A stretch of 64,000 nt of DNA, from NCBI RefSeq assembly GCF_002807665.1, contig NZ_PEAY01000008.1, forward strand, positions 1-64,000. The letters run 5' to 3'. The notes under the pieces were generated by a model that worked only from the letters and a program-made list of their open reading frames with translations, was not told the DNA's origin and did no database searches. Position numbers and translations under genes: made by a program. Source of the DNA: Neoalteromonas facilis (GTDB lineage: Bacteria > Pseudomonadota > Gammaproteobacteria > Enterobacterales > Alteromonadaceae). Positions 47,931 to 64,000 of this stretch are shown one piece after another; the stretch's first letter is position 1, and each line of letters starts with the position of its first letter.

Positions 47931-48017
47931 GCCAGAGTGGCGGAATTGGTAGACGCAGCGGATTCAAAATCCGCCGCCCGAGAGGGTGTGCCGGTTCAAG
48001 TCCGGCCTCTGGTACCA
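47931..48017 (+). tRNA. tRNA-Leu (anticodon CAA)
   Basis: 87-nt gene with encoded CCA. Acceptor stem GCCAGAG/CTCTGGT (one G-U at the base), anticodon loop TTCAAAA giving CAA, a long class II variable arm CGCCC-GAGA-GGGTG, and a T-loop GTTCAAGTC. The last 55 nt are duplicated at 63677-63731, so the 3' part probably came in with the inserted island, leaving a chimeric but fully folded tRNA. Confidence 0.96.
47963..48017 (+). repeat. Left attachment-site-like direct repeat (within tRNA-Leu)
   Basis: Runs from TTCAAAATCCGCCGCC through the T-arm to CCA. 50 of 55 positions match the right copy; all differences are in six bases of the variable-arm loop (CGAGAG here). Confidence 0.88.
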
Positions 48018-48028
48018 AACCATAAAAC

Positions 48029-48050
48029 AACCGACGAAAGTCGGTTTTTT
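48029..48050 (+). terminator. Terminator after tRNA-Leu
   Basis: AACCGAC-GAAA-GTCGGTT (48029-48046) followed by T residues: a short, strong hairpin 11 bases after the tRNA. A near copy (loop GTAA) follows the right tRNA fragment at 63764. Confidence 0.9.
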
Positions 48051-48852
48051 GTGCACGTAAATAATCAGACTCCACCCCATACACGGCGCTTCGGCATTCG
48101 TGTATTTTTCATTAAAACACGCTCCCCTTGGACAATCGTTAGCTCAATTTCCTTTGTATCTTTAAAAAAGCGAATAATTATCAACTTATGTTTGCTATCG
48201 AACACACACTAACAATCAGTTGAGGCAGACTGTCAACACACTAATACCTTCAGGGGGTTGCCGTAATGGCAAATACCTATGATAAACATCAACAATACCT
48301 ACACAATACAGAACGAAACTCATAGTGAGATAATCAGCATTTTAACGCCGCTTGCTAGCCCCTACTGGCCAAAAGCTCTGGCAAACCCTAGTGAAAAAGC
48401 TGATCTATTGGGATTTTTACCTTTACCCTTAGCCCTTCGTCATGACAAACACTATAGCTACCAGCAAAATGAGTCGGGAAACCAACATCGCAGCGTTAAT
48501 CTGCATTGGCCCAAAGCATCAGTTTTTTTTACGTAAGTAACCACCACAGCAAATAGCTTGTACTTTGTAGTCGTTTTAATTTTTGGCAATGTCAGATTAA
48601 TGCATTACGCAATGAGTTTTCGCGAATCCAAACTGCGTTTCCTCTCGCCGCGAACAACGTTCGCGACACATCTGCGATACTGACGGAATTGTATGATCGG
48701 ACTTTTATATAAAGTATAAATTTAGGATTTATCGCACTACGAAAACTATCTCTCACGCTATGTTATTACAAAGGGCAAAAATACTAAGTGCTTCTTATCG
48801 CTAAAATTTATTGTTTTTTCAATGATAGACTTGTCTCAGGAGACTGATACTG
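48051..48852. other. Gene-poor left end of the island
   Basis: About 800 bases with one weak 85-codon frame (48279-48536) and no recognisable gene. A 7-bp palindromic dyad CGCGAAC-AAC-GTTCGCG (48649-48665) lies about 190 bases before nhaA and may be an operator. The absence of an integrase gene at this end, where tRNA-inserted elements often keep theirs, is notable. Confidence 0.5.
48279..48536 (+). CDS. Possible small protein, unrecognised
   Basis: An 85-codon frame with no clear ribosome site and no recognisable family. The composition (LASPYWPKALANPSEKADLL) is protein-like rather than random, so it could be a real small protein or a remnant of a larger gene. Included only as a possibility. 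Confidence 0.2.
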   Translation: MININNTYTIQNETHSEIISILTPLASPYWPKALANPSEKADLLGFLPLPLALRHDKHYSYQQNESGNQHRSVNLHWPKASVFFT

Positions 48853-50229
48853 ATGAAGATAAAAGCGCTTGCTAAACTACTACTTGAAGAAAACAGAGGA
48901 AATGCAGAGCAATTACCTAAATCTCTCATAGACTGGCTCACTCAACCACTCGGCCGTTTCTTTAAAATAGAGGCAGTTGCAGGGATAATGCTACTCACAT
49001 TTACTCTGCTAGCGCTGTATTTGGCTAATTCGGAATTTAGTTCACAATTTGCAGCGCTATGGAAAGTTTCTGTAGGTTTCTCTGTTGGTAACTTCACATT
49101 TACTCGTTCACTGCACGCATGGATAAACGATGCAGGTATGACGTTTTTTTTCTTTCTCATCGCTCTAGAACTAAAGCGTGAACTGGTTTTAGGAGAACTA
49201 CGTAAACCGCGACTTGCATTGCTATCTGTTTCAGCTGCAGCGGGTGGTATGATAATACCGGCAACTATCTATCTTTTCTTGCAGTTCGGGGAAACCGGTC
49301 AGAACGGTTGGGGAACGGTTATGGCAACTGACACAGCTTTCGTTATTGGTTGTTTGGCATTACTAGGTAAACGCATTCCGAAGAGTCTTCGCGTCTTTAT
49401 GTTGTCGTTGGCCATTGTTGACGACCTCGGTGCAATTATCGTTGTTGCGCTGGGATATGGAAACGCCCTCAACTGGTTTTTTTTGGGTTATGCATTAATT
49501 GGCTTTGTCGTCATTAAATTTATGTCTTCACTAGGCGTCCGAAGTCTGCCTTTGTTTTTCGCTGTTGGTTTTATAATCTGGTTGTTGATTGATACTACAG
49601 GTATTCATCCAACCGTCACTGGTGTAATTCTCGGTCTGATGACGCCTACGTCACGATGGGTAAGTGACAGCAAACTACATGATATCGTGAGTGCGATATG
49701 GAGTCCGCTAGCTAAGAAGTATAAGAACAATACACTTTTGCATACCCGACTATTAAAAACTGCCGAGGCCGCTGCTCGTGAAGCCCTGTCACCAGTAGAG
49801 CGATTAGAAATTTTACTCCATCCTTGGGTGGGGTTTGTAGTGATGCCAATGTTTGCATTCGCAAATGCGGGAATTCCATTGAATAATCAGGACATGCCAA
49901 TGTCGATTTTACTGGCTGTATTCTTTAGTTTTATACTCGGTAAACCCGCTGGAATTTGTCTGTTTAGCTGGGTTGCTATACAAACTAAATTGGCAGAACG
50001 ACCTGCAGATTTGACCTGGGGGTTAATTTTTGCAGGCAGCATTTTAGCCGGGATTGGTTTCACAATGGCAATTTTTATTGCAAATCTTGCATATGAATCT
50101 GAGCAAATCAATGCCGCAAAATCAGGCGTTCTTACTGCTTCATTATTTTCCTCTTTTGTGGGTATTGCACTGTTAATCTTTATTACAAGAAAAAATAAAA
50201 CCGCGAGAACTCAGACACGTAGACTTTAA
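48853..50229 (+). CDS. nhaA: Na+/H+ antiporter NhaA
   Basis: Electrogenic sodium/proton antiporter giving sodium and alkaline tolerance. 458 residues, longer than the 388 of E. coli NhaA because of an N-terminal extension and a longer central loop. The key acidic residues are present: Asp160 in MATDTAFVIG (equivalent to E. coli D133) and the Asp190-Asp191 pair in LAIVDDLGAII (equivalent to D163-D164). About 12 membrane helices. First cargo gene of the island, separated from the Crp/Fnr gene by 339 bases, so probably its own transcript. An AGGAGA-type site (CAGGAGACTGATACTG) precedes the ATG. Confidence 0.95.
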   Translation: MKIKALAKLLLEENRGNAEQLPKSLIDWLTQPLGRFFKIEAVAGIMLLTFTLLALYLANSEFSSQFAALWKVSVGFSVGNFTFTRSLHAWINDAGMTFFFFLIALELKRELVLGELRKPRLALLSVSAAAGGMIIPATIYLFLQFGETGQNGWGTVMATDTAFVIGCLALLGKRIPKSLRVFMLSLAIVDDLGAIIVVALGYGNALNWFFLGYALIGFVVIKFMSSLGVRSLPLFFAVGFIIWLLIDTTGIHPTVTGVILGLMTPTSRWVSDSKLHDIVSAIWSPLAKKYKNNTLLHTRLLKTAEAAAREALSPVERLEILLHPWVGFVVMPMFAFANAGIPLNNQDMPMSILLAVFFSFILGKPAGICLFSWVAIQTKLAERPADLTWGLIFAGSILAGIGFTMAIFIANLAYESEQINAAKSGVLTASLFSSFVGIALLIFITRKNKTARTQTRRL

Positions 50230-50568
50230 GTAATCAAACTTCCCTACTCCTGATAACATATTGATTTATCAACATTCATATACAGTACGGATAGTATGGT
50301 CTATCATTTTACTGCTTAAAGATTGGTACTAATTTAGTCGCGATATCACGTTTATTCAAATTTGCACCATTTAATTGTTCTAATGCTGAACCACAGCAAC
50401 ATAAATGCTGCACTTCACTATACTTATCTAAATTAGGTACGTCCTTTGTTCGCTAACGCACAGAAGTAAAGATAATAAATGGCTAGTCTGAACTCAAAAA
50501 TGATACTTTCCTGTAGCATGGCGCAGGTCTTGAAGGCGAAACAGAGAGTTATTAAGGAACGTGTACTC
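50230..50568. other. Interval between nhaA and the Crp/Fnr gene
   Basis: Roughly 340 AT-rich bases. I see no gene, and no terminator or promoter strong enough to call. The frame of the regulator is open back to 50479, but the upstream part lacks features of the family. Confidence 0.45.
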
Positions 50569-51276
50569 ATGATTAAATGCAATAACACCCTCTTGTCAGC
50601 ACTTCTTTCAGTCTTACCTGAACAATGTGAAAGAAAATTAGAGTTGATTCCCCTCAAGCTGGGTCAAGTGTTATACGAATCGGGCGAAGCGCTACAATAT
50701 GTTTACTTCCCAGTTGATGCCATAGTTTCTTTACTTTTCGAAATGTCAGATGGCTCATCTGCTGAGATTTCAGTTGTAGGAAATGAAGGAATTGTAGGCG
50801 TTGCTGTTTTTTTAGGCGGAGGTAGTACACCGAGTCGCGCGATTGTGCAAAGTCAAGGGAAGGCATATCGCGTTTCCGCAAGCTTAATTAAGCAGGTCTT
50901 TAACAATGATGCCACTGCACGTATTCTTCTGCTACGCTATACGCTTTCACTTATTACTCAGATGTCCCAAACTGCGGTGTGTAACCGACATCACTCGATA
51001 GTACAACAGCTCTGCCGCTGGATTTTGCTCTCACTAGACCGTTTGCCCAATAACAATTTAGTCATGACGCAAGAACTCATAGCAAATATGTTAGGCGTTC
51101 GAAGGGAGGGTGTAACGGAAGCGGCGGGCAAACTCCAAAAAGCAGGGGTAATAACCTACAAACGAGGACACATCACAGTTATAGACCGCCCAAAATTAGA
51201 AGACATGTGCTGCGAATGCTACAAAGTGGTAAAGGAGGAATCAGACAGATTAGAAGCCTTCCCCATTAAATGTTAG
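50569..51276 (+). CDS. Crp/Fnr-family transcription regulator
   Basis: 235 residues: an N-terminal cyclic-nucleotide-binding-like beta barrel (GQVLYESGEALQYVYFPVDAIVSLLFEM, seen here from about residue 28) and a C-terminal winged helix (MTQELIANMLGVRREGVTEAAGKLQKAGVI). There is no FNR-type N-terminal Cys cluster, and the cAMP pocket is not conserved, so the effector is unknown. It belongs to the stand-alone Crp/Fnr group found in environmental bacteria beside stress genes; its tail has a CCEC motif. ATG at 50569 has AAGGA ten bases upstream. A likely regulator of the island, including the operon beginning 185 bases downstream. Confidence 0.87.
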   Translation: MIKCNNTLLSALLSVLPEQCERKLELIPLKLGQVLYESGEALQYVYFPVDAIVSLLFEMSDGSSAEISVVGNEGIVGVAVFLGGGSTPSRAIVQSQGKAYRVSASLIKQVFNNDATARILLLRYTLSLITQMSQTAVCNRHHSIVQQLCRWILLSLDRLPNNNLVMTQELIANMLGVRREGVTEAAGKLQKAGVITYKRGHITVIDRPKLEDMCCECYKVVKEESDRLEAFPIKC

Positions 51277-51461
51277 TAGCAAAAAAATTAATTAATAAGA
51301 CTTTTTTCGATGTATGTGCTTAAACGCACAGATAAACACATCATCTAAAGGCTTAATAGTTAGGCAATACACAATGTGCCTAATGCATTTAACGCAGCAG
51401 AAAACAAAGTAACAATGCGTTTTTAGGTATTCCGTGAAATTACCTAAAAGGAAGTATTGTT

Positions 51462-54400
51462 ATGCTGCTCACTTTTCTCCCTACCTCTTCGTCAAATACC
51501 ACGTGGGAAAACATTCCTATTCGCAAATATACTTATAGCACAGAGCGCTTGGGTAATTACGCAGAGGCGTTGGCTAAACATCACAAGATCACTACAAAAC
51601 TAACGTGTGTACCTTCACTTTATAAACGGCTTGAAGATAATGCACTGACACTTGAGCAATTGGTATCGAAAAGCAATTCACATAAACGCGATAGCAAAGA
51701 CTCGCCTAAAGGTATTGACTGGTTGCTGGACAATTATCATGTGGTCGATACACAGATTTGGCAAACCACGTTAGACCTACCAGAACGAACTTACAATAAA
51801 CTGCCTCACCTCGCGGTTGGAAAATTAGCCGGTTATGCCAGAATATTAGCCATAGCATGGCACTATTTAGAGCATACTGACTGCCACTTTACTATGCAAA
51901 GCTTTTGCCACTTTATTTCCTGTTACCAGCACACTGAAATCTTGAATATATCAGAGCTGTGGTCACTTCCTAGCGTGATGAAGATTGTGCTTATTGAAAA
52001 TCTGAGCCGCTTATCCAAAGCTCAAATGGATAATCACTTTTCACATAATAAAGCTAATAGTACGGCAGATAATGTACTAGCAAAACCGGAAAACGCGGCC
52101 ACATCATCGCAATTTACACCGCCGAACCTAAGCAACTATTCACCAAGTGCAAATGTTACTTTTTTAGCACAACTGGCAAGACGCTTACGAGGAAAAGATC
52201 CAGAAAAGTACCCTTTACTTCGTTGGCTTAACCAACAACTGTCCCAAGAAAGTAAGTCTGTTGACACCATCATTCAACAAGTATCTCTTGAACAAAGTGT
52301 AGTAAGCGAAACCATGAGCAATATCATCAACAGCTTGAGACTGTTGGGAGAACTTGATTGGAAAGTCCCTTTCGAGCAGTTAAGCCATGTTGATAATCGG
52401 CTGCGCACCTACTCGGCTTATGCAGACATGGATTTTAGCACGCGCAATCTATATCGCAGCAATATAGAAAGGCTAGCCTCTGGTTCTGAATTAACCGAAT
52501 GTGAAATTGTTGACGCCTCTCTAGCGCGCGCTAAAGCCTTGAGTATTGACCAAACCATCAAGTCTGAAAAACGTCGCATTGCCGATCCTGGCTACCACCT
52601 GTTCGGCGATGGTCACCGCCAGTTTGAAAAAGACATTAATTATAAACCATCGATAATAGAGCGAATACGCTTCGCGTTAGGAGAGTGCGGCACCAAGGTT
52701 TATGTAGGGCTTATCATTTCATTAAGTGTTTTGTTACTCGTTCTTTTTATTCTTTTGCTATTTGTTTTTAATTTCTCGTTTTTGCTTCAAATTATTTTAT
52801 CGCTGCTTGCACTCATCCCCATCGGCGAGGTGTCAGTGCTTTTAATAAATCAAGTTATTATACATTTTGTGCATACTGATCCTTTACCCGGTCTTTCGCT
52901 AAGGACCGGCGTGCCAAACGCCAACAGAACTTTCGTAGTTATACCGTCCCTATTATCTAACAAAGCAGGCGTTGACAAACTTACTTACCAGCTTGAAATG
53001 CACTATTTAACCTGTATCGATGATAACGTTAGCTTTGGGCTTTTATTGGATGGAGTTGATGCCACAAGCCAAGCATTATCGAGCGATAAAATGCATTTAC
53101 TGCGCATTAGTGAACGAATTGCAGCACTCAATAAAAAATACCCAGGCTTTCGAAACCGCAATCGATTTTATCTGTTGTATCGAAAGCGCATGTTCAATCG
53201 TCACGAGCAGACGTGGATGGCCTGGGAACGAAAAAGAGGGAAGTTACACGAACTCAATCGTCTTTTAAGGGGAGCGACAGATACTACTTTTACGCCTGTT
53301 GATTCCGGTCAAATAGACATTCCTGAGTATATTAAATATGTGGTGACCTTAGATGAAGACACGCAGTTAACACGCGGCGTTATTAAAAAATTAATAGGTA
53401 AAATGGCTCACCCGCTTAACACACCGTTACTAGACAGGAGAGAGCGCAGGGTTGTTAAAGGGCATGGCATTTTACAACCTAAAGTTACCCCATTAATGCC
53501 AAGCAATGGTAACGGCTCTTGGTATCAATTCATCTTCTCAAGCCCAGGAGGAATAGACCCATATGTTTCCAGTAGCTCAGATGTGTATCAAGATTTGTAT
53601 GACGAAGGCTCTTACACCGGAAAGGGTATTTACGATATTGATGCATTTGAGAGTGCGCTGAAATCTCGTGTACCTGCTAACAAACTATTGAGTCATGACT
53701 TATTTGAAGGGATATTTGCACGGGCGGGCTTTGCCTGTGATATAGAAGTATTGGAAAGCTACCCCCGCAGTTACCATGCCGATATTAACCGCCTTCACCG
53801 ATGGACAAGAGGTGATTGGCAACTGCTTCCGTGGCTACTGGGCATAATAAATGGCACAGGTAAGATACCTATGCTTGGTCAATGGAAAATTATAGATAAT
53901 TTACGTCGTTCACTGGTACAACCTTGTCTTTTTACAACGCTGATTTTGTCTTTTTTCTTTCCTTTACATCAAGCTTTATTGCTCTGGACACTGGTGTTTA
54001 GCATATTGGCGGCACCTTTTATTATTCACTTGTCACTGCTTTTTGTTTCATATCGAAGAAGCCAAGGCAGAATAGTCACGCACTTAAAAATGTGGCTGTC
54101 AGACGGGTTGCTGTCTTTTATTAACTATTTTTTTATTCTTGCGTTCCTCCCCGATAAAAGCGTTAAAATTCTAGACGCATTAGCAAGAACGTTTATGAGA
54201 ATGGCGTTTACCCAAAACCACCTTTTACAGTGGGTATCGTCAGATGAAATTGAACGCACGCATAAACCCTCTTTAGTGAACTACTACAAGCTCATGAGCA
54301 CAAGTGTTGGCTTGGTGTTGTTTGCTTCAATTTCGACGCTTTTATACTCAGCCACCCACTTTTTCACGACATTACCTTTCGTGCTGCTTTGGTTCCTCGC

Positions 54401-57400
54401 TCCTGCGATGGCGTGGCTGTTGAGCCAGCCAAATGTTCGCCCTTACCTACATCTTAGCGAAAATAGGCAAACTACCCTTCGCCTTATTGCACGCAGAACG
54501 TGGCGATTTTTCGATGAGTTTGTTACGTCTGATGACAATATGCTGCCACCGGACAACTTTCAGCAGCTGCCCGAAGCGAAAACAGCGCACCGAACATCGC
54601 CCACTAATATCGGGCTATATTTACTATCGGTAGCAAGTGCTAAGGATTTTGGCTGGGTAGGACTTGTTGAAGCGACCGAAAAACTTGAAGCAACCTTGGA
54701 AACACTCGGCAAGCTTGAAAAGCACGAAGGACACTTACTGAATTGGTATAACACACAAACACTTCAACCATTACACCCTAAATATGTTTCTTCTGTTGAT
54801 AGTGGTAACTTAGCCGGGCATCTCATTGCGCTGGCGAACACCCTAGAAGCTTGGCGAGAGCAAATTGAACAGCGTGTTGAGCCGAATATTAAACAGGCAC
54901 TTCATGATAATTTAATACTGCTAGACGCAGCTATTATCAACGCTGAGCCAACACAAAAAAATTATCCCCACTGCCGAGTTGAAATACTCAACTTGCTAAA
55001 TTTATTGGAAGATGAAAACAGTAATGCTGCTTATGATTTAATCAGCGTAGAGAAATCCCTTCATGCACTTCTGCCATTACTGACTAGCAACGTAACATCA
55101 ATCGACGCAAATGTTCATTACTGGTTACAAAACACAATTAGTCGTATAGAGGCTTCAAAACAAGACAAGCAGATCCTATCTGTTGGCCAAGCTAATCTTA
55201 AAGCACGGTTTGAGCGCCTAGCTTCTAATGCCCGCTCATTTGCAATGGGCATGAACTTCCACTTCTTATTTAACCAAGAAAAGGTCTTACTAAGCATCGG
55301 GTATTCTGTTGATAATGATACTTTAGATACTGGGTGCTATGACTTGCTAGGTTCTGAAGCGCGTTTGGCTAGCCTGTTTGCCATTGCCAAAAACGACATT
55401 CCTTCAGAGCACTGGTTTCACTTGGGTCGCACAGCATCACCTGTTGGATTCAGCGCAGCGCTGCTATCGTGGTCAGGTTCGATGTTTGAGTACCTCATGC
55501 CATCTTTAATTATACGGGCACCTTTTGGCAGCCTGATTGCCAATACAAACAACATGGCTGTAGTTCAACAACAGCTTTATGGCAAGTACCTTAAGATTCC
55601 CTGGGGTCTTTCTGAGTCGGCATTTAACGCACGAGACTTAGAATTTAACTATCAATACTCAAGTTTTGGTGTGCCTAGCTTAGGGCTTAAACGTGGGCTT
55701 GCCGACAGTATTGTGGTGTCCCCTTATTCAAGCGGTCTTGCCGCGATGGTAGATCCCAACAGCGCAGTAAAAAACTTTAAAAAACTGGAGTCATTAGGGT
55801 GTTTAGGACCATATGGTTTCTTTGAAGCCATCGATTTCACACCCTCAAGACAGCCAAAAAACGCTAAACACACGGTTATCGAAAGCTATATGGCTCATCA
55901 CCAGGGAATGATCATCGTCGCTATCAATAATACATTGAACAATGGCGTTATGCGCAATCGATTTCACAATGAGCCAATGATTGGCGCCTGTGAATCGCTA
56001 CTTCAAGAGCGTATCCCCCGTAATGTATCACTTAAACGTCCTCTAACTCAGGAGGATAGCGTTGTGCAAAATCTCTCACTCTCTAAATCCACATCACGGG
56101 TATTTAGTCCGCATAAAAACGGCCAAAGACAAACAAATATGCTGTCAAACGGCAGATATACTGCAATGGTAACCTCAGCAGGTTGTGGTTATAGCGTGTG
56201 GAAAAATATAGCGATCACACGCTGGAGTGGCGATACCACTACTGACGATGACGGCATGTTTTTCTTTGTTCACGACGTAAAATCGAAACATACCTACTCG
56301 CCGACAATACAACCGTTGCGCGCTGAAAGCAGCGAATATTGTAGCAGATACACGGCCGAATTTGCCGAAGACTATGCCCGCTATGAAGCAACAAGCGATG
56401 AAATGAAAAGCACTATAGACGTAGTTGTTACTAGTGACAGCGATGGTGAGGCTCGTCAGCTTAAAATTATCAACACATCGCTTACCACAAAACCGGTTGT
56501 TGTAACGTCGTTTAATGCGCTAGCGCTGGCGCCAAGGAAAGCTGATAGCGCTCACCCTGCTTTTTCTAAAATGTTTGTACAAACAAGTATGCTTAAAGAG
56601 CGCAACGCACTCATTGCAACAAGACGGAAACGTGCGCCTGAAGAACTTGAAATATGGGTTGCTAATTTCGCTGTCGTGAGCGACCAAGTAGTTAATGAGT
56701 TCGAGTTTGATACGAGTAGGCTGACCTTTATTGGCAGAGGTAAGACGGTACACAATGCAAATGGAAATAAAGTTTTACACAAAGGTCTCAACAGGCTTGG
56801 CAGTTCGCTCGGCGCGGTTATCGACCCGGTATTTGTATTAAGACATCACATTGATATTCCTGCAGGAAAACAAGTAACGATAACCTACTGGCTATTAGTC
56901 GCATCTTCTCGTAAAAGTTTACTGTCTCTTATCGACCAACACGCCGATACATATTCATTTGACCGTGCTAAAACCATGGCGTGGACACAATCTCAAGTCT
57001 TACTAAGCCACCTTGGTATAGATAATGATGAAACTGCAACCTTCCAAAAAATCGCAACACAGTTGCTTTACATAGACACCAGACCCTCGCATCAAAAGGA
57101 CTTGCCCTTGCCGGTAAAAAATATCAAACATTTGTTGTGGCAAGAGGGCATATCTGGCGACCTACCTATTGTGGTAATGCGAATATGTGACAGTAGTGAT
57201 ATCAAACATGTAGAGCAATTATTGCGTGCACACGAGTATTGGAAATTAAAAATGCTGTATGTGGATATAGTGATCATCAATGAACAGCGTTCGACCTATT
57301 TTCACAGCTTACAAGACGCTATTGAAACCGCGGTGCGCTGCAGTCAATCGCCTGTTTATCACTCAGAAGAACACACCGGCCCTGCACACTGCTATGTACA

Positions 57401-60095
57401 TGTACTGCGTTATGATCAAATCTCAACTGATTTGCTTAATACCGTAACGCATGCGGCCAGACTGGTGATCAACGCGCGCAATGGAGATTTAGCAACACAA
57501 TGTCATCACCTTGTTGAGACAGACCTTATAGGTAAAACACACGCTAAAGAAAACGTTCAAAAACAATCGCGATATATGACGCCATCAACGTTAAATAAAA
57601 CAGATGTTTCCAGTCTTTCTTTTTTCAATGGTACAGGTGGATTTGATACCAAGAACAACGAATACGTTATTCAATTAAGCGGCGGTCGCACTCCTCCTGC
57701 GCCTTGGATAAACATTATCGCCAATGAAAATTTCGGTTTTCAAATTGGTGAGGATGGAAACGGTTACACATGGGCTCAAAACAGCCGAGATAATCAGTTA
57801 ACCCCTTGGTACAATGACCCAGTTTGTAATCCATGTGTAGACAATTTGTATGTGAGAGATGAGGATACACTCGCGTTAAGCAGTGCCTCAAACCAACCTA
57901 TTCAAGATGGCGGAGAATACGAAGTGAGCCATGGTTGGGGTTATAGTGTATTTTCACACCATGCCGATCACCTTTACATGGAATCAACCCATACCGTAGT
58001 ACAAAACGCTCCAGTAAAAATGGTCCGCCTGTCGATTAAAAACACGGGCAAACATGAACGCAAGGTATCGATTACCAGTTATATTGAGTGGGTACTAGGT
58101 AACGATAAATATGAAAGCGGGCCCTTTTTAACCACCACCTTTGAGCAATACTTTCAGGCAATAACATTGTCCAATCCATTTTCGACTGAATTTTCTGAAA
58201 GTGAGGCATTTGTGATGCTTCAAAGTGAACTGGATGAATGGACCACAGACCGCACAGAATTCCTTGGGCAATATGGGAGTCCAAGTCACCCCGCTGCTTT
58301 AGCACATAATCAGCCGATGAAAAAGCGTTTGGGGCAATGTTTTGATATCTGTTCGGCCATGCAAACTAAGCTCACTATTCAGCCTAATGCGTCACAAGAT
58401 GTCGTGCTGGTTTTTGGCTACGCAAGCAACCATGACCACGCTCTAAGTTTAATCAAACGCTATAAACACGCCACTTTTGACGTTGTACTACAACAGAATA
58501 AAGCATATTGGCTACGTCTGCTCACACATGTTCAGGTAGATACCCCTGACAAAGCGACTAACCTGTTATTAAACGGCTGGTTAAACTATCAAACAATGAG
58601 TAGCCGAATTTTAGCGCGTTGCGGATTTTATCAGGCCAGCGGCGCATTTGGATTTCGCGACCAATTGCAAGATGGTATGTCGATGCTATGGCACAGTCCC
58701 AAACGCGTGCGAGAACACATTTTGCACGCTGCGTCCCGGCAGTTTAAAGAGGGGGATGTTCAACATTGGTGGCTTCCACTTTCAGGGCGAGGAGTAAGAA
58801 CTCATATTTCTGATGACAGAATATGGTTAGTCGTAGCAGCTACGCATTACGCAAAGAACACACAAGACCAAGACATTTGGCAAGTACAAATACCTTTCCT
58901 AGAAGGACCACTTTTAGATTCATCAACACATGATGCTTTTTTCATGCCAAATAGCAGCGATGATACTGCCAGCCTGTTAGAGCATTGTATCTTGTCGATT
59001 AACGCTACGCTTGCTGCCAGAGGTAAACATGGCTTGCCGCTTATTGGCACCGGTGACTGGAACGACGGCATGAACGGAATTGGTAAGCTGGGCGAAGGAG
59101 AGAGCGTATGGCTAGGCTGGTTTACCCTCTTTGCCATTGACCAGATATTTGCACTTCAATCTTCTTATTGTAAGCAAAAGCTAATACCTTATAAAGAGCG
59201 ATGGCAACAGGCTTCGCGAGAAATATCTCACGCTATCGAACAACATGCCTGGGATGGTGAATGGTACCGCAGAGCCGTATTTGATAATGGTATCTGGCTT
59301 GGCTCTCAGCTTAATGATGAATGCAAAATTGACGCTATTTGTCAGTCGTGGGCAGTACTGTCTAATCACTCGTGCGCCAACAGAGCCGACAAAGCTATGA
59401 CAATGGCGTCTCAGTATCTTGTAAGGAAAGAGTTAGGCTTAGCGCTGCTATTTACTCCTCCTTTCGAGAAAACTATTTTAGAGCCGGGCTATATAAAAGG
59501 CTATCCAGCAGGTTTCCGGGAAAATGGAGGGCAATACACCCACGCGGCCGTCTGGACAGTAATGGCACTGTGTAAACAAGCAAAATCAGATCAGGCATTA
59601 GAGCTCTTTTCCATGCTAAATCCCATCAATCACACACTTAATGAAGCGCATTGCGCCAAATACAAAGTTGAGCCCTACGTTATGGCGGCAGACGTCTACT
59701 CTGTGCCTCCCCACTGCGGAAGAGGTGGTTGGACCTGGTATACAGGCGCCGCAGGTTTAATGTATCAAGCAGGGCTCTCTTCCCTATTAGGAATAGAAAA
59801 GCGGGGCAAATCATTGGAAATAACACCACGGTTACCGTCACAGTGGGATCGCTACAGCGTAACGATAGACATGGATAACGCACACTATGTGATAGAGGTT
59901 ATTAGAAACATACAGAAGGCAAGAAATGTCAATGATGATAAAGCATCTCGCACGCTTGGCGGGCGAGAAACCTCACCAAATTTGAATCAACAGTGGGACG
60001 TTTATATCGACGAAGAGAAGCATAACTTCACCACAAATATCGCGTTCCCAATGTTAGCAGGCAAACATCATGTCAGAATTTTAATAAAAGGCTAG
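51462..60095 (+). CDS. Cyclic beta-1,2-glucan synthase-like protein (GT84 plus GH94)
   Basis: A giant membrane protein of 2,877 residues with the architecture of NdvB/Cgs. N-terminal soluble domain (about 1-400); membrane helices near 413-465; a GT84 glycosyltransferase with the acidic triad VTLDEDTQL (Asp631, Asp633) and HRWTRGDWQLLPWL (Arg780, Trp781); more helices near 820-1010; a glucoamylase-like domain with YMAHHQGMIIVAINNTL near 1470; and a C-terminal GH94 phosphorylase domain with GDWNDGM (Asp2532, Asp2535). In rhizobia and Brucella such proteins build periplasmic cyclic glucans that matter for osmotic adaptation and host contact. Here it is on a horizontally acquired island. Start at 51462 has AAGGAAG upstream. 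Confidence 0.93.
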   Translation: MLLTFLPTSSSNTTWENIPIRKYTYSTERLGNYAEALAKHHKITTKLTCVPSLYKRLEDNALTLEQLVSKSNSHKRDSKDSPKGIDWLLDNYHVVDTQIWQTTLDLPERTYNKLPHLAVGKLAGYARILAIAWHYLEHTDCHFTMQSFCHFISCYQHTEILNISELWSLPSVMKIVLIENLSRLSKAQMDNHFSHNKANSTADNVLAKPENAATSSQFTPPNLSNYSPSANVTFLAQLARRLRGKDPEKYPLLRWLNQQLSQESKSVDTIIQQVSLEQSVVSETMSNIINSLRLLGELDWKVPFEQLSHVDNRLRTYSAYADMDFSTRNLYRSNIERLASGSELTECEIVDASLARAKALSIDQTIKSEKRRIADPGYHLFGDGHRQFEKDINYKPSIIERIRFALGECGTKVYVGLIISLSVLLLVLFILLLFVFNFSFLLQIILSLLALIPIGEVSVLLINQVIIHFVHTDPLPGLSLRTGVPNANRTFVVIPSLLSNKAGVDKLTYQLEMHYLTCIDDNVSFGLLLDGVDATSQALSSDKMHLLRISERIAALNKKYPGFRNRNRFYLLYRKRMFNRHEQTWMAWERKRGKLHELNRLLRGATDTTFTPVDSGQIDIPEYIKYVVTLDEDTQLTRGVIKKLIGKMAHPLNTPLLDRRERRVVKGHGILQPKVTPLMPSNGNGSWYQFIFSSPGGIDPYVSSSSDVYQDLYDEGSYTGKGIYDIDAFESALKSRVPANKLLSHDLFEGIFARAGFACDIEVLESYPRSYHADINRLHRWTRGDWQLLPWLLGIINGTGKIPMLGQWKIIDNLRRSLVQPCLFTTLILSFFFPLHQALLLWTLVFSILAAPFIIHLSLLFVSYRRSQGRIVTHLKMWLSDGLLSFINYFFILAFLPDKSVKILDALARTFMRMAFTQNHLLQWVSSDEIERTHKPSLVNYYKLMSTSVGLVLFASISTLLYSATHFFTTLPFVLLWFLAPAMAWLLSQPNVRPYLHLSENRQTTLRLIARRTWRFFDEFVTSDDNMLPPDNFQQLPEAKTAHRTSPTNIGLYLLSVASAKDFGWVGLVEATEKLEATLETLGKLEKHEGHLLNWYNTQTLQPLHPKYVSSVDSGNLAGHLIALANTLEAWREQIEQRVEPNIKQALHDNLILLDAAIINAEPTQKNYPHCRVEILNLLNLLEDENSNAAYDLISVEKSLHALLPLLTSNVTSIDANVHYWLQNTISRIEASKQDKQILSVGQANLKARFERLASNARSFAMGMNFHFLFNQEKVLLSIGYSVDNDTLDTGCYDLLGSEARLASLFAIAKNDIPSEHWFHLGRTASPVGFSAALLSWSGSMFEYLMPSLIIRAPFGSLIANTNNMAVVQQQLYGKYLKIPWGLSESAFNARDLEFNYQYSSFGVPSLGLKRGLADSIVVSPYSSGLAAMVDPNSAVKNFKKLESLGCLGPYGFFEAIDFTPSRQPKNAKHTVIESYMAHHQGMIIVAINNTLNNGVMRNRFHNEPMIGACESLLQERIPRNVSLKRPLTQEDSVVQNLSLSKSTSRVFSPHKNGQRQTNMLSNGRYTAMVTSAGCGYSVWKNIAITRWSGDTTTDDDGMFFFVHDVKSKHTYSPTIQPLRAESSEYCSRYTAEFAEDYARYEATSDEMKSTIDVVVTSDSDGEARQLKIINTSLTTKPVVVTSFNALALAPRKADSAHPAFSKMFVQTSMLKERNALIATRRKRAPEELEIWVANFAVVSDQVVNEFEFDTSRLTFIGRGKTVHNANGNKVLHKGLNRLGSSLGAVIDPVFVLRHHIDIPAGKQVTITYWLLVASSRKSLLSLIDQHADTYSFDRAKTMAWTQSQVLLSHLGIDNDETATFQKIATQLLYIDTRPSHQKDLPLPVKNIKHLLWQEGISGDLPIVVMRICDSSDIKHVEQLLRAHEYWKLKMLYVDIVIINEQRSTYFHSLQDAIETAVRCSQSPVYHSEEHTGPAHCYVHVLRYDQISTDLLNTVTHAARLVINARNGDLATQCHHLVETDLIGKTHAKENVQKQSRYMTPSTLNKTDVSSLSFFNGTGGFDTKNNEYVIQLSGGRTPPAPWINIIANENFGFQIGEDGNGYTWAQNSRDNQLTPWYNDPVCNPCVDNLYVRDEDTLALSSASNQPIQDGGEYEVSHGWGYSVFSHHADHLYMESTHTVVQNAPVKMVRLSIKNTGKHERKVSITSYIEWVLGNDKYESGPFLTTTFEQYFQAITLSNPFSTEFSESEAFVMLQSELDEWTTDRTEFLGQYGSPSHPAALAHNQPMKKRLGQCFDICSAMQTKLTIQPNASQDVVLVFGYASNHDHALSLIKRYKHATFDVVLQQNKAYWLRLLTHVQVDTPDKATNLLLNGWLNYQTMSSRILARCGFYQASGAFGFRDQLQDGMSMLWHSPKRVREHILHAASRQFKEGDVQHWWLPLSGRGVRTHISDDRIWLVVAATHYAKNTQDQDIWQVQIPFLEGPLLDSSTHDAFFMPNSSDDTASLLEHCILSINATLAARGKHGLPLIGTGDWNDGMNGIGKLGEGESVWLGWFTLFAIDQIFALQSSYCKQKLIPYKERWQQASREISHAIEQHAWDGEWYRRAVFDNGIWLGSQLNDECKIDAICQSWAVLSNHSCANRADKAMTMASQYLVRKELGLALLFTPPFEKTILEPGYIKGYPAGFRENGGQYTHAAVWTVMALCKQAKSDQALELFSMLNPINHTLNEAHCAKYKVEPYVMAADVYSVPPHCGRGGWTWYTGAAGLMYQAGLSSLLGIEKRGKSLEITPRLPSQWDRYSVTIDMDNAHYVIEVIRNIQKARNVNDDKASRTLGGRETSPNLNQQWDVYIDEEKHNFTTNIAFPMLAGKHHVRILIKG

Positions 60096-60172
60096 ATAAT
60101 GTGGTGAAGCGCACAGATGCGCTCAATACAGGGGGTATATTAGTGAAAGGCTTTATATTGAAGGACAAAATA

Positions 60173-60532
60173 ATGACGCGATTTCACGTATTTTTCACCT
60201 CTGTCGTTTTAGCGACACTGCTATCGGGATGCAACAAGCAAGCAAATGATAGCGACAAAGTGCCACCTTCGACTGTGATTGATTTGCCTTTAAAACAAAC
60301 GTCCCCCTCACCTTATAAACTGGAAGATTTGACACAGGAGATTCGCGCGACACTCAACACGTTGGGCATGAGTGTTGCCAATAACATCACCGTAAATACG
60401 GTCAGTAACAATGTGACTCTTGCTGGAACGGTAATGTCTGAAAAGCAAAAACAAATGGTGTTAAATGCTGTTCGAGAAATTGAGGGCATTAATCTCATTA
60501 CCGACGAAATTATGGTGGTTCCGATAGATTAG
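60173..60532 (+). CDS. BON-domain outer-membrane-type lipoprotein
   Basis: 119 residues: signal peptide with lipobox LLSGC (lipidated Cys near residue 22), a linker, then one BON domain (ITVNTVSNNVTLAGTVMSEKQ, VREIEGINLITDEI). BON domains bind phospholipid surfaces in OsmY and DolP. ATG at 60173 is preceded by AAGGA; a frame start at 60101 is less likely. It follows the glucan synthase by 77 bases and precedes the HflK-like gene, so probably in the same operon. Confidence 0.88.
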   Translation: MTRFHVFFTSVVLATLLSGCNKQANDSDKVPPSTVIDLPLKQTSPSPYKLEDLTQEIRATLNTLGMSVANNITVNTVSNNVTLAGTVMSEKQKQMVLNAVREIEGINLITDEIMVVPID

Positions 60533-60573
60533 CACTTCACTTCGAAATCGCCACAATGAACAGGAGAATAAAA

Positions 60574-61656
60574 ATGCAGATTCAGATAAACAGCCCACCA
60601 AACACCCCTTGGGGGAGCGGTCAAACCGGCGGTCCTCCGCCTGATGTGGACAAAGAAGTAAAGCAGTTGTTCGATAAACTTAAAAACTTCTTACCCGGCG
60701 GAAGTCCAAAAGCTTTTATAAGTGTCGTTTTGCTTTTGTTCACTATTTTTATGGTATGGAACCTTTTTTATACCGTGCCAAGCGACTCTATTGCGGTGGT
60801 CCAACGCTTTGGTAAATTGCATGCTCAAAAAGATCCCGGCTTGCATCTAAAGATACCTTTTGGGGTAGACACAGTTCACATCGTACCTGCGAAGCGTCAA
60901 TTAAAACAGGAATTTGGCTTTGCTACCGCAGCCGCTACAAATCCTGACCAAGGCTCGAGAGGTGACTATGCACTTAGGGAAACCCAAATGGTTACGGGCG
61001 ACTTAAATGCTGCGCTTGTAGAATGGGTTGTGCAATACCGTATTGCAACCCCCATTGACTACCTGTTCCAAGTACGCGACCCCAGTGAAACGCTGCGCTA
61101 TATTTCTGAATCTGTCATGCGAGAGGTAGTCGGAGACAGAACAGTGGACGAAGTAATAACAATAGGTAGGCAAGAGATTGAATTTCAATCTTTGGAACGC
61201 CTTAGAGAGATAGCACAAACCTATGCTATGGGTATTGCTATCGACCAAGTACAGCTAAAAAACATCAACCCGCCCTCGCCGGTTCAAGCATCATTTAATG
61301 AAGTGAACCAGGCACAACAAGAAAAAGAGCGACTCATCAACGAAGCCAGAAGGGAATACAACAGAGTGATCCCGCTCGCAGAAGGCGAAAAAGATCAAAG
61401 AATACGTGAAGCAGATGGTTACCGCTTACAGCGCGTTAATGAAGCACAAGGAGATGTGAGCCGCTTTAATGCACTTTTGGTGGAATACCAAATGGCACCC
61501 GAAGTAACTCAGCGCAGGATATACATTGAACACCTTGAACGCCTGCTTCCTAGTATAAAGCATACCTATTTATTAGACGGAGATAAGGGGTCGGTTTTAC
61601 CAATCATGAACCTCAGTTCAGAAAACTCGGTTGTTCTGGGGGAGGAAAGAAAATGA
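60574..61656 (+). CDS. HflK-like SPFH membrane protein
   Basis: 360 residues resembling HflK: a Gly/Pro-rich cytosolic N-terminus (SPPNTPWGSGQTGGPPPD), one membrane helix (about 48-68), then the prohibitin domain (VPSDSIAVVQRFGKLHAQKD, GLHLKIPFGVDTVHIV) and a charged C-terminal coiled region (QAQQEKERLINEARREYNRV). HflK with HflC controls the FtsH protease in E. coli. This island copy is separate from a presumed core hflKC (not seen). ATG at 60574 has AGGAG seven bases upstream. No ftsH is in the island. Confidence 0.88.
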   Translation: MQIQINSPPNTPWGSGQTGGPPPDVDKEVKQLFDKLKNFLPGGSPKAFISVVLLLFTIFMVWNLFYTVPSDSIAVVQRFGKLHAQKDPGLHLKIPFGVDTVHIVPAKRQLKQEFGFATAAATNPDQGSRGDYALRETQMVTGDLNAALVEWVVQYRIATPIDYLFQVRDPSETLRYISESVMREVVGDRTVDEVITIGRQEIEFQSLERLREIAQTYAMGIAIDQVQLKNINPPSPVQASFNEVNQAQQEKERLINEARREYNRVIPLAEGEKDQRIREADGYRLQRVNEAQGDVSRFNALLVEYQMAPEVTQRRIYIEHLERLLPSIKHTYLLDGDKGSVLPIMNLSSENSVVLGEERK

Positions 61657-62675
61657 CTAAAAAACGAATCTCGATTTTGCCTTTTTTGGTTCTGTTTGTC
61701 TTTGCAGGCTGGATTACTAGCCACACATTTTTTACGGTAAGCGAGACCGAGCAAGTCATTATCACGCAATTCGGTAAGCCAATGGGTACGCCCATAACTG
61801 AGGCGGGTCTCAAAGTAAAAATCCCCTTTATCCAAACCGTAAACTCTATTGATAAACGCATATTAGAATGGGATGGTCCTCCTTCCGATATGCCAACCAA
61901 AGATAAGCTTTACATATCGGTTGACTTATTTGCCCGCTGGCGCATTGTCGAGCCTCTGCAGTATTTTTTGCGCTTGAAAGATGAAAGAAGTGCGCAGTCA
62001 CGACTCGACGACATTTTAGGAAGTGAAACGCGTAATGCCGTCGCTAAACACAAACTAATAGAAATTATACGTACAACAAAACTCAGGGTGCCTGAAAGAG
62101 ACGCGCTACTCAATGACGTTGAGAAAAGGCTAAATATGGGTAATTTGGTGCCCATCGTAAAGGGGCGAAAAGTAATTGAGAAAGAAATCTTTGAAGCCGC
62201 AGCGGAAAAAATCAAGGTTTTTGGTATAGAGTTGCTCGACATTCAGTTTAAACGCATTAATTACAACACCAGTGTACGCCCTAAGATTTATGACCGGATG
62301 ATAAGCGAACGACGTCAAATCGCTGAACGCTTTCTTTCTGAAGGCAATGGCGAGTCTGCAAGAATAAGAGGCAATAGAGAACGTGAGTTAAAACGTATTC
62401 GCTCCGAGGCCTATCGACAAGTTGAAGATATAAGGGGGAAAGCAGATGCTCAAGCTGCCAGCATTTACGCTGCGGCCTATAACCAAAGCCCAGCATCGCG
62501 TGACTTCTATGTATTTACCCGAACGCTGTCGGCGTATGAAACGCTACTAAATAAAAACACGACACTGCTTCTTTCCACTGACAGTGAAATATTCCAATTA
62601 TTAAAAGAAGCACCACTTGCAATAAAAACGCAACCTGACTTTACTACGGATACTAGCGGTGAAGACGATCTTTAA
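61653..62675 (+). CDS. HflC-like SPFH membrane protein
   Basis: 340 residues with one N-terminal helix (about 6-24), then the HflC-type prohibitin domain (VSETEQVIITQFGKPMGTPI, GLKVKIPFIQTVNSIDKRI) and a coiled tail (ERFLSEGNGESARIRGNRER). Its ATG overlaps the HflK-like stop by four bases, and a strong GGGGGAGG site precedes it. Forms a pair with the preceding gene. Confidence 0.9.
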   Translation: MTKKRISILPFLVLFVFAGWITSHTFFTVSETEQVIITQFGKPMGTPITEAGLKVKIPFIQTVNSIDKRILEWDGPPSDMPTKDKLYISVDLFARWRIVEPLQYFLRLKDERSAQSRLDDILGSETRNAVAKHKLIEIIRTTKLRVPERDALLNDVEKRLNMGNLVPIVKGRKVIEKEIFEAAAEKIKVFGIELLDIQFKRINYNTSVRPKIYDRMISERRQIAERFLSEGNGESARIRGNRERELKRIRSEAYRQVEDIRGKADAQAASIYAAAYNQSPASRDFYVFTRTLSAYETLLNKNTTLLLSTDSEIFQLLKEAPLAIKTQPDFTTDTSGEDDL

Positions 62676-63510
62676 CATTTTGGAAGAGAAGCATTATGTG
62701 TGGATATGGGTAACCTGTATCACTTTTGTATGTGTTATTTCCGTGGTCAATAATCAATTTCTCACCACTGTTTCGTTAGAGCCTCTTCTTTTGCTACCAG
62801 TGGTGATTGCCAGTTGGTATGGCAACTTAATTACCGGTTTATCTGTGTCATTTATTTCGGCACTTGCTATCATTGTATCTTACGATCGAGCTTCGCTTGC
62901 TATTCCAAGCACTGACGCGGTATGTACGGCCCTAGTTTACTTGTCGGCACTATGTATTTTAAGCATATTAATCAATAACTTTAGTAACGTTTTTAAAGTT
63001 GAAGAGGCAGCCGCCGAGCATGACCACCTAACTGGTTTGTTAAACACTCGCGGGCTGACTTCATTACTAGAAGAAGAGATCGCGCGAACCAGACGTTACA
63101 GACACCCCTTCACAGTTGCTTATATCGATATTGATAACTTTAAGACCATCAATGACACAAAAGGCCATTATGGAGGCGACGTCATACTGTGCAAACTAGC
63201 GAAAATTATAACCAAATCATTTAGAGAAAGTGATTACATTGGCCGGATTGGTGGCGATGAATTTGTGTGTTTATTGCCTGAAACAAAACAGCCAGATGCT
63301 AAAGTTGTATTTGACAAGCTACACAAGAATTTAGACACGGCATTTCGTAACGAAGATATTACCGTTACCTTTAGTATAGGCGTTGTTACGTTCGAATCTG
63401 CCCCTCCAAGTACGCAAACGGCACTGGCATTAGTCGACAGTGTCATGTACCGCGTTAAGAAACTAAACAAGAACGACGCCGCGTTTCAGGTTTACTCTTC
63501 AACGTCTTAA
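62659..63510 (+). CDS. Membrane diguanylate cyclase
   Basis: 283 residues with about four N-terminal helices (residues 14-112, in a pattern recalling the KdpD DUF4118 region) and a GGDEF domain with DHLTGLLNTRG, YIDIDNFKTINDTKGHYGGD and an intact IGGDEF. The RESD motif five residues before the active site fits a product-inhibition site. GTG at 62659 overlaps the end of the HflC-like gene by 17 bases, so it is coupled to it. Likely makes cyclic di-GMP at the membrane in response to an unknown signal. Confidence 0.88.
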   Translation: MKTIFNILEEKHYVWIWVTCITFVCVISVVNNQFLTTVSLEPLLLLPVVIASWYGNLITGLSVSFISALAIIVSYDRASLAIPSTDAVCTALVYLSALCILSILINNFSNVFKVEEAAAEHDHLTGLLNTRGLTSLLEEEIARTRRYRHPFTVAYIDIDNFKTINDTKGHYGGDVILCKLAKIITKSFRESDYIGRIGGDEFVCLLPETKQPDAKVVFDKLHKNLDTAFRNEDITVTFSIGVVTFESAPPSTQTALALVDSVMYRVKKLNKNDAAFQVYSSTS

Positions 63511-63676
63511 TAGAATTTTGTTTATCAATAATTAGGCTTGATACAAAAAAGAATAGCTTGCGAAAGTTATTGTGAGCTTGGCCTGAAGCAGGCATGCGAT
63601 CATGCAAAGAATTTACAAAGGTTCTTTTTATCTCTTTAAATAATTGAGTTTTAAAGATTAAAACATACGCTATCTT
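63511..63676. other. Right end of the island, non-coding
   Basis: An AT-rich tail between the GGDEF gene and the right repeat. No gene or integrase relic is recognised. No clear terminator follows the operon here. Confidence 0.5.
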
Positions 63677-63731
63677 TTCAAAATCCGCCGCCTTTACGGG
63701 TGTGCCGGTTCAAGTCCGGCCTCTGGTACCA
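63677..63731 (+). repeat. Right attachment-site-like repeat: 3' fragment of tRNA-Leu
   Basis: Starts in the anticodon loop (TTCAAAATCCGCCGCC) and runs to the CCA end. It has no 5' half and no promoter, so it is not a functional tRNA. The variable arm reads TTTACG in place of CGAGAG but still pairs. It is probably the original chromosomal 3' end displaced by insertion. Confidence 0.9.
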
Positions 63732-63763
63732 CTTTAGATGATGCAACAACAAACGGCCCAACA

Positions 63764-63787
63764 AACCGACGTAAGTCGGTTTTTTTG
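63764..63787 (+). terminator. Terminator after the tRNA fragment
   Basis: AACCGAC-GTAA-GTCGGTT (63764-63781) plus a T-run, nearly identical to the hairpin after the intact tRNA. Probably the ancestral chromosomal terminator of the tRNA-Leu gene. Confidence 0.88.
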
Positions 63788-63868
63788 TGTCTGAAGCAGA
63801 GACCTAAAGCAGCAATAAAACAAGAAAATTTCTTTGAAGAAAAATAACTTCTTGTGCGCAAGCACCCC

Positions 63869-64000
63869 TTATTTTTCTGCTTTGCAGTTGCTAAACAATT
63901 CATAACCAGCCAATAAATCACTGAGTTCTTCATCGATTGAGTTTTGTCGCAACTGATGAAATTCTTGTCCTAGATTTTGTAGTTGCTCGTCGATATTTTT
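63869..64000 (-). CDS. C-terminal end of an unrecognised protein (5' part outside the window)
   Basis: 43 codons in frame to the right window edge, ending at TAA (63871-63869). The residues are hydrophilic and probably helical (KNIDEQLQNLGQEFHQL) with a Cys near the end (FSNCKAEK). I do not recognise the family. It is the first gene beyond the island and reads towards it. Confidence 0.55.
   Translation of the reverse strand, partial: KNIDEQLQNLGQEFHQLRQNSIDEELSDLLAGYELFSNCKAEK

Follow-up and report, generated by a model that had tools for sequence, protein, structure and literature searches.

The 64,000-nt stretch of Neoalteromonas facilis DNA analysed here (contig NZ_PEAY01000008.1, positions 1–64,000; hereafter the window) carries, downstream of a tRNA-Leu(CAA) gene, a cassette of seven genes that had been proposed, from the letters alone, to form a transferable envelope or osmotic-stress module (hereafter the original prediction). 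All seven genes were found, intact and on the + strand, in the list of open reading frames (ORFs). They code for an Na+/H+ antiporter NhaA (48853–50229; Pfam PF06965, with TIGR00773 above its cut-off), a Crp/Fnr-type regulator (50569–51276, in an ORF opening at 50479; PF13545 and PF00027), a 2877-aa cyclic-glucan synthase-like protein (51462–60095; PF06165, PF17167 and PF10091, and PDB entry 8rf0), a BON-domain lipoprotein (60101–60532; PF04972), an accessory HflK (60556–61656) and an accessory HflC (61653–62675), both of SPFH/Band 7 type (PF01145; TIGR01933 and TIGR01932, respectively, above cut-off), and a diguanylate cyclase (62659–63510; PF00990, TIGR00254) in which a GGDEF motif and an I-site-like RESD motif could be read. 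The close packing described for the last five genes was confirmed, with gaps of 5 bp and 23 bp and overlaps of 4 bp and 17 bp. The start of the Crp-type gene was taken from relatives, its conserved start being residue 31 of the ORF (50569), upstream of which stops are present in the related locus L037. The BON protein probably starts at the ATG at 60173, judging from a lipoprotein signal read by eye in the sequence.

The cassette lies within an island of 15.7 kb (island 1) between the tRNA-Leu(CAA) gene (47931–48017, + strand; ARAGORN, Rfam RF00005), the putative integration target and attL-like left junction, and a diverged copy of the tRNA 3' half. At the right end (63595–63733, + strand) an arm, TGCAAAGAATTTACAAAG (63603–63620), is followed after 54 nt by the anticodon-loop core TTTTCAAAATCC and the tRNA-Leu 3' half (63677–63731, + strand; 91% identical to the tRNA). 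The terminator hairpin following the tRNA (48029–48046, + strand) resembles that following the right end (63763–63782, + strand). Between the tRNA gene and the right-end repeat only the cassette and a small frame, orf85, are present. The right repeat was not attributed to a second tRNA gene in tandem, since what precedes it is the arm common to these ends rather than the 5' half of a tRNA. A second island (island 2) follows in tandem, starting at 63734, with 63734–64000 inside the window, and running on to contig position ~84047, where it ends at another tRNA copy. The right ends of both islands have the arm TGCAAAGAATTT(A/G)CAAAG, then 54 nt and then TTTTCAAAATCC. Allowing a gap of 45–65 between arm and core, this pattern was found in 21 of the 395 family genomes drawn, own genome included, and in none with the reversed-pattern control. 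Out of 25 distinct right ends 24 were aligned, one being removed by a length filter; the arm-to-core distance is 53–55 nt in 22 of them, and conservation between arm and core is weak (e.g., TTGAT). A profile of the right ends also detects ends in genome G063 and at locus L037. Downstream of tRNA-Leu in three further genomes (G001:C2, G002:C12 and G003:C12) the tRNA 3' end is repeated in tandem, in one to three short copies, some with a terminator, which are perhaps left-over integration scars.

The six genes from the Crp-type gene to the GGDEF gene (hereafter the block) were found whole in two other genomes, at L037 (Alteromonas sp. IB21) and at L233 (genome G323, of another genus). The window's block shares 83.2% DNA identity with L037 across 13,112 aligned positions and 82.7% with L233 across 13,183, whereas for lptFG, core genes next to the site, the identity to G323 is just 68% (77% to G002 and 72% to G001, both of the same genus; this comparison covers these three genomes and not that of L037). 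Since the block is more alike than the neighbouring lptFG genes in G323, its vertical inheritance was discarded and a horizontal movement is indicated. No glucan synthase was found in G001 or G002. Between the loci L037 and L233 the identity is 85.6% over a stretch that begins 82 bp past the L037 right end, takes in a P-type ATPase gene and stops where the GGDEF gene ends. At the start of the L233 contig a tRNA-like stretch was recognised by eye only (profile E 0.34). Elsewhere in G323, contig C53 ends in a tRNA-Leu-like 5' half (33 nt, 88%), C54 carries a 423-aa integrase and C56 begins with a lipase gene that is also found after the cassette in L037 and at 94.5 kb on the window's contig; these three contigs are presumably neighbours, tandem arrays of this sort seeming to interrupt short-read assemblies. 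The ratio of nonsynonymous to synonymous substitutions (dN/dS) of the six block genes is 0.05–0.27 against L233 and 0.03–0.20 against L037, low values indicating, at the codon level, that purifying selection has maintained their function. For the Crp-type gene against L037, a value of 0.85 arises spuriously if non-coding codons with stops ahead of the gene are counted; computed from the conserved start, the ratio is 0.03.

The accessory HflC was found in 31 of the 395 family genomes drawn (E ≤ 1e-60) and in 19 of the 369 class genomes drawn (E ≤ 1e-100), own genome included in both counts. In 20 neighbourhoods from the best-scoring 19 of the 30 other HflC-bearing family genomes, HflK is always adjacent, NhaA is present in 13 and a Crp-type gene in 12; with the window and L037 included, HflK is found at 22/22 loci, and NhaA and the Crp-type gene at 14/22 each. 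The glucan synthase occurs at 4 of these 22 loci, and the BON and cassette-type GGDEF genes at only 3, window included, while fumarase-like (8), PRC-barrel-like (7) and aconitase-like genes (5), named by eye and not by family search, are other neighbours. In G063 a 12 kb island of its own at tRNA-Leu(CAA) carries Crp, HflK, HflC and NhaA, with the same right end after NhaA and without an integrase. The core also lies downstream of tRNA-Leu(CAA) in G001; a right end was not detected there within the stretch searched. These results run counter to the outcome that would have spoken against the original prediction, namely genes that never co-occur elsewhere: both the block and a reduced core recur. 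The exact seven-gene set, by contrast, was not found outside the own genome, and recurrence at different tRNA sites, which had been proposed as a check, was not seen, tRNA genes being present at only 2 of the 21 loci scanned, both of them tRNA-Leu(CAA). The other homes of the core are plasmids and chromosomal places.

Among 72,556 plasmid records, 19 carry the accessory HflC, and on at least 11 of these, from two proteobacterial classes, a relative of NhaA lies within 10 kb (in one case the copy is truncated, with an IS3 element nearby); such an NhaA is found on only 100 of the 72,556 records in all. The hflK, hflC and nhaA genes overlap on the two Vibrio plasmids viewed, and in plasmid pPZ02 of Paracoccus zhejiangensis and a plasmid of Roseibium aggregatum hflK, hflC, nhaA, an annotated Crp/Fnr gene and a glucan synthase gene are contained within ~21 kb. 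Relatives of the glucan synthase occur in at least 593 GTDB stretches and on 172 plasmid records. Near the 80 best GTDB loci, a count that takes in L037 and weak or partial matches, the Crp type was found in 9, HflK/HflC in 3 and NhaA in 4, and only one of the 80 (L037) has the other five block genes beside it; for this reason the synthase alone is a poor marker of the module and was discarded as such. Taken together, the tRNA-bounded site, the identity of the block to that of another genus, above that of core genes, and the recurrence of a reduced core, also on plasmids, bear out the transferable nature of the module, and past mobility of the cassette is well supported by these comparisons. 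No paper on the combination of HflK, HflC, NhaA, Crp and glucan synthase was found in literature searches, and in these the set has no name.

As for the individual products, NhaA scores 345.9 with TIGR00773 (cut-off 254) and retains, in VDDLGAIIV, the aspartate pair VDD that has a functional role in this family. A genome search found no other full-length NhaA-family gene in the own genome, the only further copy being a fragment in island 2. HflK (TIGR01933, 258.3 against a cut-off of 159.4) and HflC (TIGR01932, 239.1 against 134.4) align to the HflK and HflC chains, respectively, of PDB structures which we take to be FtsH complexes of E. coli; they are 27–39% identical to a separate, housekeeping HflK/HflC pair of the genome. 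The 2877-aa protein combines glycoamylase-like and GH94 families in Pfam and aligns to PDB 8rf0 across residues 84–2815. In the printed alignment the motifs TLDEDT, SHDLFEG and RLHRW, which are glycosyltransferase motifs, are preserved; in the part presumably belonging to GT84 no Pfam model was above cut-off. In other bacteria cyclic beta-1,2-glucan is an osmoregulated periplasmic glucan. The GGDEF and RESD motifs of the last gene have known roles in diguanylate cyclases.

The original prediction had placed the entire cassette under one local regulator; what stands of this claim is a pair of conserved palindromes upstream of the glucan synthase gene. The candidate operators are TTAGGCA-N10-TGCCTAA (51360–51383), conserved in L037 and L233, and TTAGGTA-N11-TACCTAA (51423–51447), conserved in L233 and with one change in L037. 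They are the only two such sites on the 112 kb contig, where a mean of 0.02 is obtained in 200 mononucleotide shuffles. As a guess from the sequence, the Crp-type protein might bind both palindromes and control the glucan synthase.

Two tyrosine recombinase families, one of ~300 aa (XerC-like) and one of 423–430 aa, occur in related islands, and six-frame profile searches detected neither in island 1 or island 2; among the Pfam matches of the submitted island 1 ORFs of at least 85 aa no relaxase or conjugation family was present. Island 1 has two features of a cis-mobilizable element (CIME), an island type treated in PMC3146451 and PMC5704250: attL/attR repeats of the target at its flanks, and an interior free of integration and transfer genes. 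Searches of the complete genomes of G000 (own), G001, G002, G003 and G063 found no member of the 423-aa family, and none of the PF00589 tyrosine recombinases elsewhere in the own genome exceeds 34% identity to the ~300-aa family. The lack of both families in island and genome points to a recombinase supplied from outside or lost later.

A ~300-aa XerC-like recombinase was found between tRNA and right end in at least six genomes (G374, G340, G291, G343, G059 and G137; the G340 interval takes in 16.3 kb outside the fetched sequence), and the 423–430 aa recombinase in nine fetched loci, including those six, one copy having a stop. The latter gene lies ~30 bp from the right end in four of the nine loci (L184, L190, L183 and L189) and ~150 bp from it in L173. 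Examples are L184 1078–2346 and L190 1148–2416, recognised with PHROGs; two members of the family had no Pfam match (E 0.001) and clear PHROGs matches, so that PF00589 searches alone can miss it. Among 19 chosen genomes the 423-aa family was present in 7, two of which are known carriers and one of which has a remnant only. Fifteen further intervals (12 from tRNA to end and 3 from end to end) were scanned in six frames with both profiles: neither was found in 12, which include both window islands and the G063 island, while two had an intact 423-aa gene and one a remnant. Right ends without an intact tRNA in the fetched stretch (e.g., L175, L186, L188 and L189) were excluded from this count. The recombinases of related islands presumably act on the shared right end. 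In the integrase-bearing genomes G059, G291, G374, G343 and G137 an arm-like motif was also observed before the intact tRNA-Leu, preceded by a tRNA 5'-half fragment in four of the five loci, the G374 stretch starting too close to tell.

We regard it as fairly probable that island 1 is a CIME-like element without an integrase, whose entire cargo is the cassette, a sodium/envelope stress module. The island would have entered tRNA-Leu(CAA) by site-specific recombination around the anticodon loop, with TTCAAAATCC as the predicted crossover stretch at its ends, so that an intact tRNA now stands on the left and the arm with the tRNA 3' half on the right, by means of a recombinase supplied from elsewhere or subsequently lost. 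NhaA would export Na+, the 2877-aa enzyme would synthesise cyclic beta-1,2-glucan, and the accessory HflK/HflC would form a second SPFH compartment for membrane quality control, probably around the host's own FtsH, with the BON lipoprotein and this second pair contributing an envelope layer. The GGDEF protein would make cyclic di-GMP (c-di-GMP), and the Crp-type protein may govern the glucan synthase via the two palindromes. We infer a stress function for the cassette, and its control by Crp.

A serious contender, which we rate just short of probable, is that island 1 is a decayed former integrative element, that is, a plain CIME that brought in an integrase of its own, lost it and can no longer leave the chromosome. 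CIMEs are usually explained by decay (PMC5704250). The island of genome G096 (L191) retains at its right end a vestige of the 423-aa integrase, 51 residues long, intact integrases are present in related islands, and the right-end tRNA copy of island 1 is diverged (91%). Against it, no integrase remnant was detected in 12 of the 15 intervals scanned, both window islands included, and 7 of the 15 are short (0.7–5.1 kb), more like cargo units than the products of random decay. Moreover, 1.69 kb up to the right-end core of island 2 (contig 82303–83990) are 96.7% identical to G059 (L187), another genus, and from this identity it follows that this end moved recently.

Several observations weigh against the reading of the cassette as the stress cargo of an integrase-less island. 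The G096 remnant means that some such islands have decayed, and the link between recombinase and right end is not uniform, with 2.6–20 kb separating the 423-aa gene from the closest right end found in four of the nine loci. A near-complete block was found in only two other genomes, in both of which NhaA is missing from it. The constancy of HflC at the loci compared, and in part that of HflK, follows from the choice of the loci by HflC. On plasmids, close relatives of the Crp-type protein (E ≤ 1e-50) are present on 44 records, none of them among the 19 HflC records; the Crp/Fnr genes on HflC plasmids are therefore of another or a more distant kind. A scan of the other 19 HflC loci did not retrieve the palindromes as an exact pattern, an FtsH gene is not part of the cassette, and no ChvA/NdvA glucan exporter was above cut-off in the genome, the best match reaching 280 of 585 bits.

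A broader version of the stress-cargo reading, which we put forward as no better than tentative, is a two-part mobile system at tRNA-Leu(CAA) of marine Alteromonadaceae, comprising recombinase islands and small cargo-only islands moved in trans. Some islands would encode one or two tyrosine recombinases, while cargo-only islands, often a single operon, would carry just the common right end of ~130 bp and be stacked in tandem, like integron cassettes but with whole operons. The sodium/envelope stress module of the window would be one such unit, and the hflK-hflC-nhaA core may be a widespread, unnamed stress-tolerance kit shared with Vibrio and alphaproteobacterial plasmids. Other islands with the same right end (L174, L181, L182 and L185) were seen to carry unlike cargo: a transglutaminase, SelO with a UvrA-like protein, a TonB receptor with an AraC regulator, and a NACHT/trypsin/ECF protein.

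The cassette could instead serve surface polymer and lifestyle, with a cyclic glucan controlled by c-di-GMP acting in biofilm formation or in association with algal or animal hosts, and NhaA and HflKC as passengers. A diguanylate cyclase is indeed co-encoded, yet NhaA is present at 14 of the 22 HflC loci, compared with 4 for the glucan synthase and 3 for the GGDEF gene (the loci having been chosen by HflC), and the tandem neighbour, with an N-ATPase and a DnaJ-type chaperone, again has ion and stress functions, making this explanation unlikely. A chance pile-up of unrelated cargo at a hotspot, lacking any functional coupling, seems more unlikely still: the exact composition is rare (the single locus, L037, among the 80 best synthase loci, the blocks of L037 and L233 without NhaA, and the BON and cassette-type GGDEF genes in only 3 of 22 loci), but HflK-HflC recur with NhaA and/or a Crp-type gene among different neighbours, NhaA is near at least 11 of 19 plasmid HflC genes against 100 of 72,556 records with such an NhaA at all, and the reading frames overlap and show low dN/dS.

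The preferred reading, a CIME-like island with stress cargo, can be set beside systems already described. The hallmark genes of the transmissible locus of stress tolerance (tLST), or locus of heat resistance (LHR), include sHsp20, ClpK/ClpG, YfdX, HdeD, KefB, FtsH and DegP, the tLST thus carrying its own copy of FtsH. None of these hallmarks is among the Pfam/NCBIfam matches of the cassette. The tLST is the nearest functional analogue, and the cassette is not a member of it. As described in the review PMC8290217, the tLST resembles the cassette in being transferable, in duplicating quality-control factors and in having a cation/proton antiporter (KefB), and some of its variants encode a diguanylate cyclase too; the terms HflK, NhaA and glucan are absent from the main text of that review. 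Among the Dehalococcoides ssrA islands, 15 without integration modules are reported (PMC3146451); they are similarly in tandem, bounded by repeats of the target 3' end, variable in integration module and loaded with accessory cargo. They differ from those studied here, in which the target is tRNA-Leu(CAA), the recombinases are tyrosine and not serine enzymes and a conserved arm lies ~54 nt from the core. In Alteromonas australica a Leu-tRNA genomic island with a 52-nt repeat is reported in PMC4119200, and its cargo there, a pyrroloquinoline quinone (PQQ)-dependent methanol/ethanol dehydrogenase, is unlike the cassette.

That no recombinase of the two families was found in islands 1 and 2 sets them apart from a Tycheposon, a tRNA-bounded element with its own tyrosine recombinase. 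In pKLC102 of Pseudomonas aeruginosa, a conjugative element of another type, a glucan synthase gene (43.8% identity) and a Crp-type gene (70.5%) are divergent and ~1.3 kb apart, and no HflK, HflC or NhaA is present in the 18 kb shown. The glucan synthase itself differs from 8rf0, to which it aligns over residues 84–2815, in lying within a mobile cassette without ChvA/NdvA above cut-off. These comparisons leave a recurring set for which the searches gave no name, a second HflK/HflC with NhaA, in this family often a Crp-type gene and sometimes the glucan synthase, tied to defined mobile carriers, and a concrete recombination end at which one can ask whether islands lacking an integrase are relics or move in trans. 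Should its genes act together, the set would form the sodium-side counterpart of the tLST and a route by which salt and envelope tolerance could spread among marine bacteria.

Regarding the neighbouring island 2, an N-ATPase operon starts at 63869 (TIGR03324 and TIGR03305 above cut-off), and further genes code for HlyD, cytochrome b561, a DnaJ-type chaperone, DUF1840 and an IS3-type transposase (rve, HTH_21). Its phosphoenolpyruvate (PEP) synthase-like gene is split into two overlapping ORFs (L009 11456–13902) and is perhaps disrupted, and a 5' fragment of a second nhaA, a frame of 158 aa, is located at contig 79766–80242. Promoter scanning retrieved 24 sites, fewer than in shuffled sequences (33.8), and terminator scanning 24 against 15.2.

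Finally, orf85 (48279–48536, + strand), the small frame between tRNA and cassette, contains the motifs YWPKA and HWPKA and had no match in Pfam, NCBIfam or PHROGs. Its relatives lie immediately upstream of Crp or HflK elsewhere: proteins of 72–102 aa with two spaced motifs of (H/Y)WP(K/S/T) type were observed in this position at L234, L235, L237, L238 and L244, and the differences at third codon positions suggest that these small proteins are translated.

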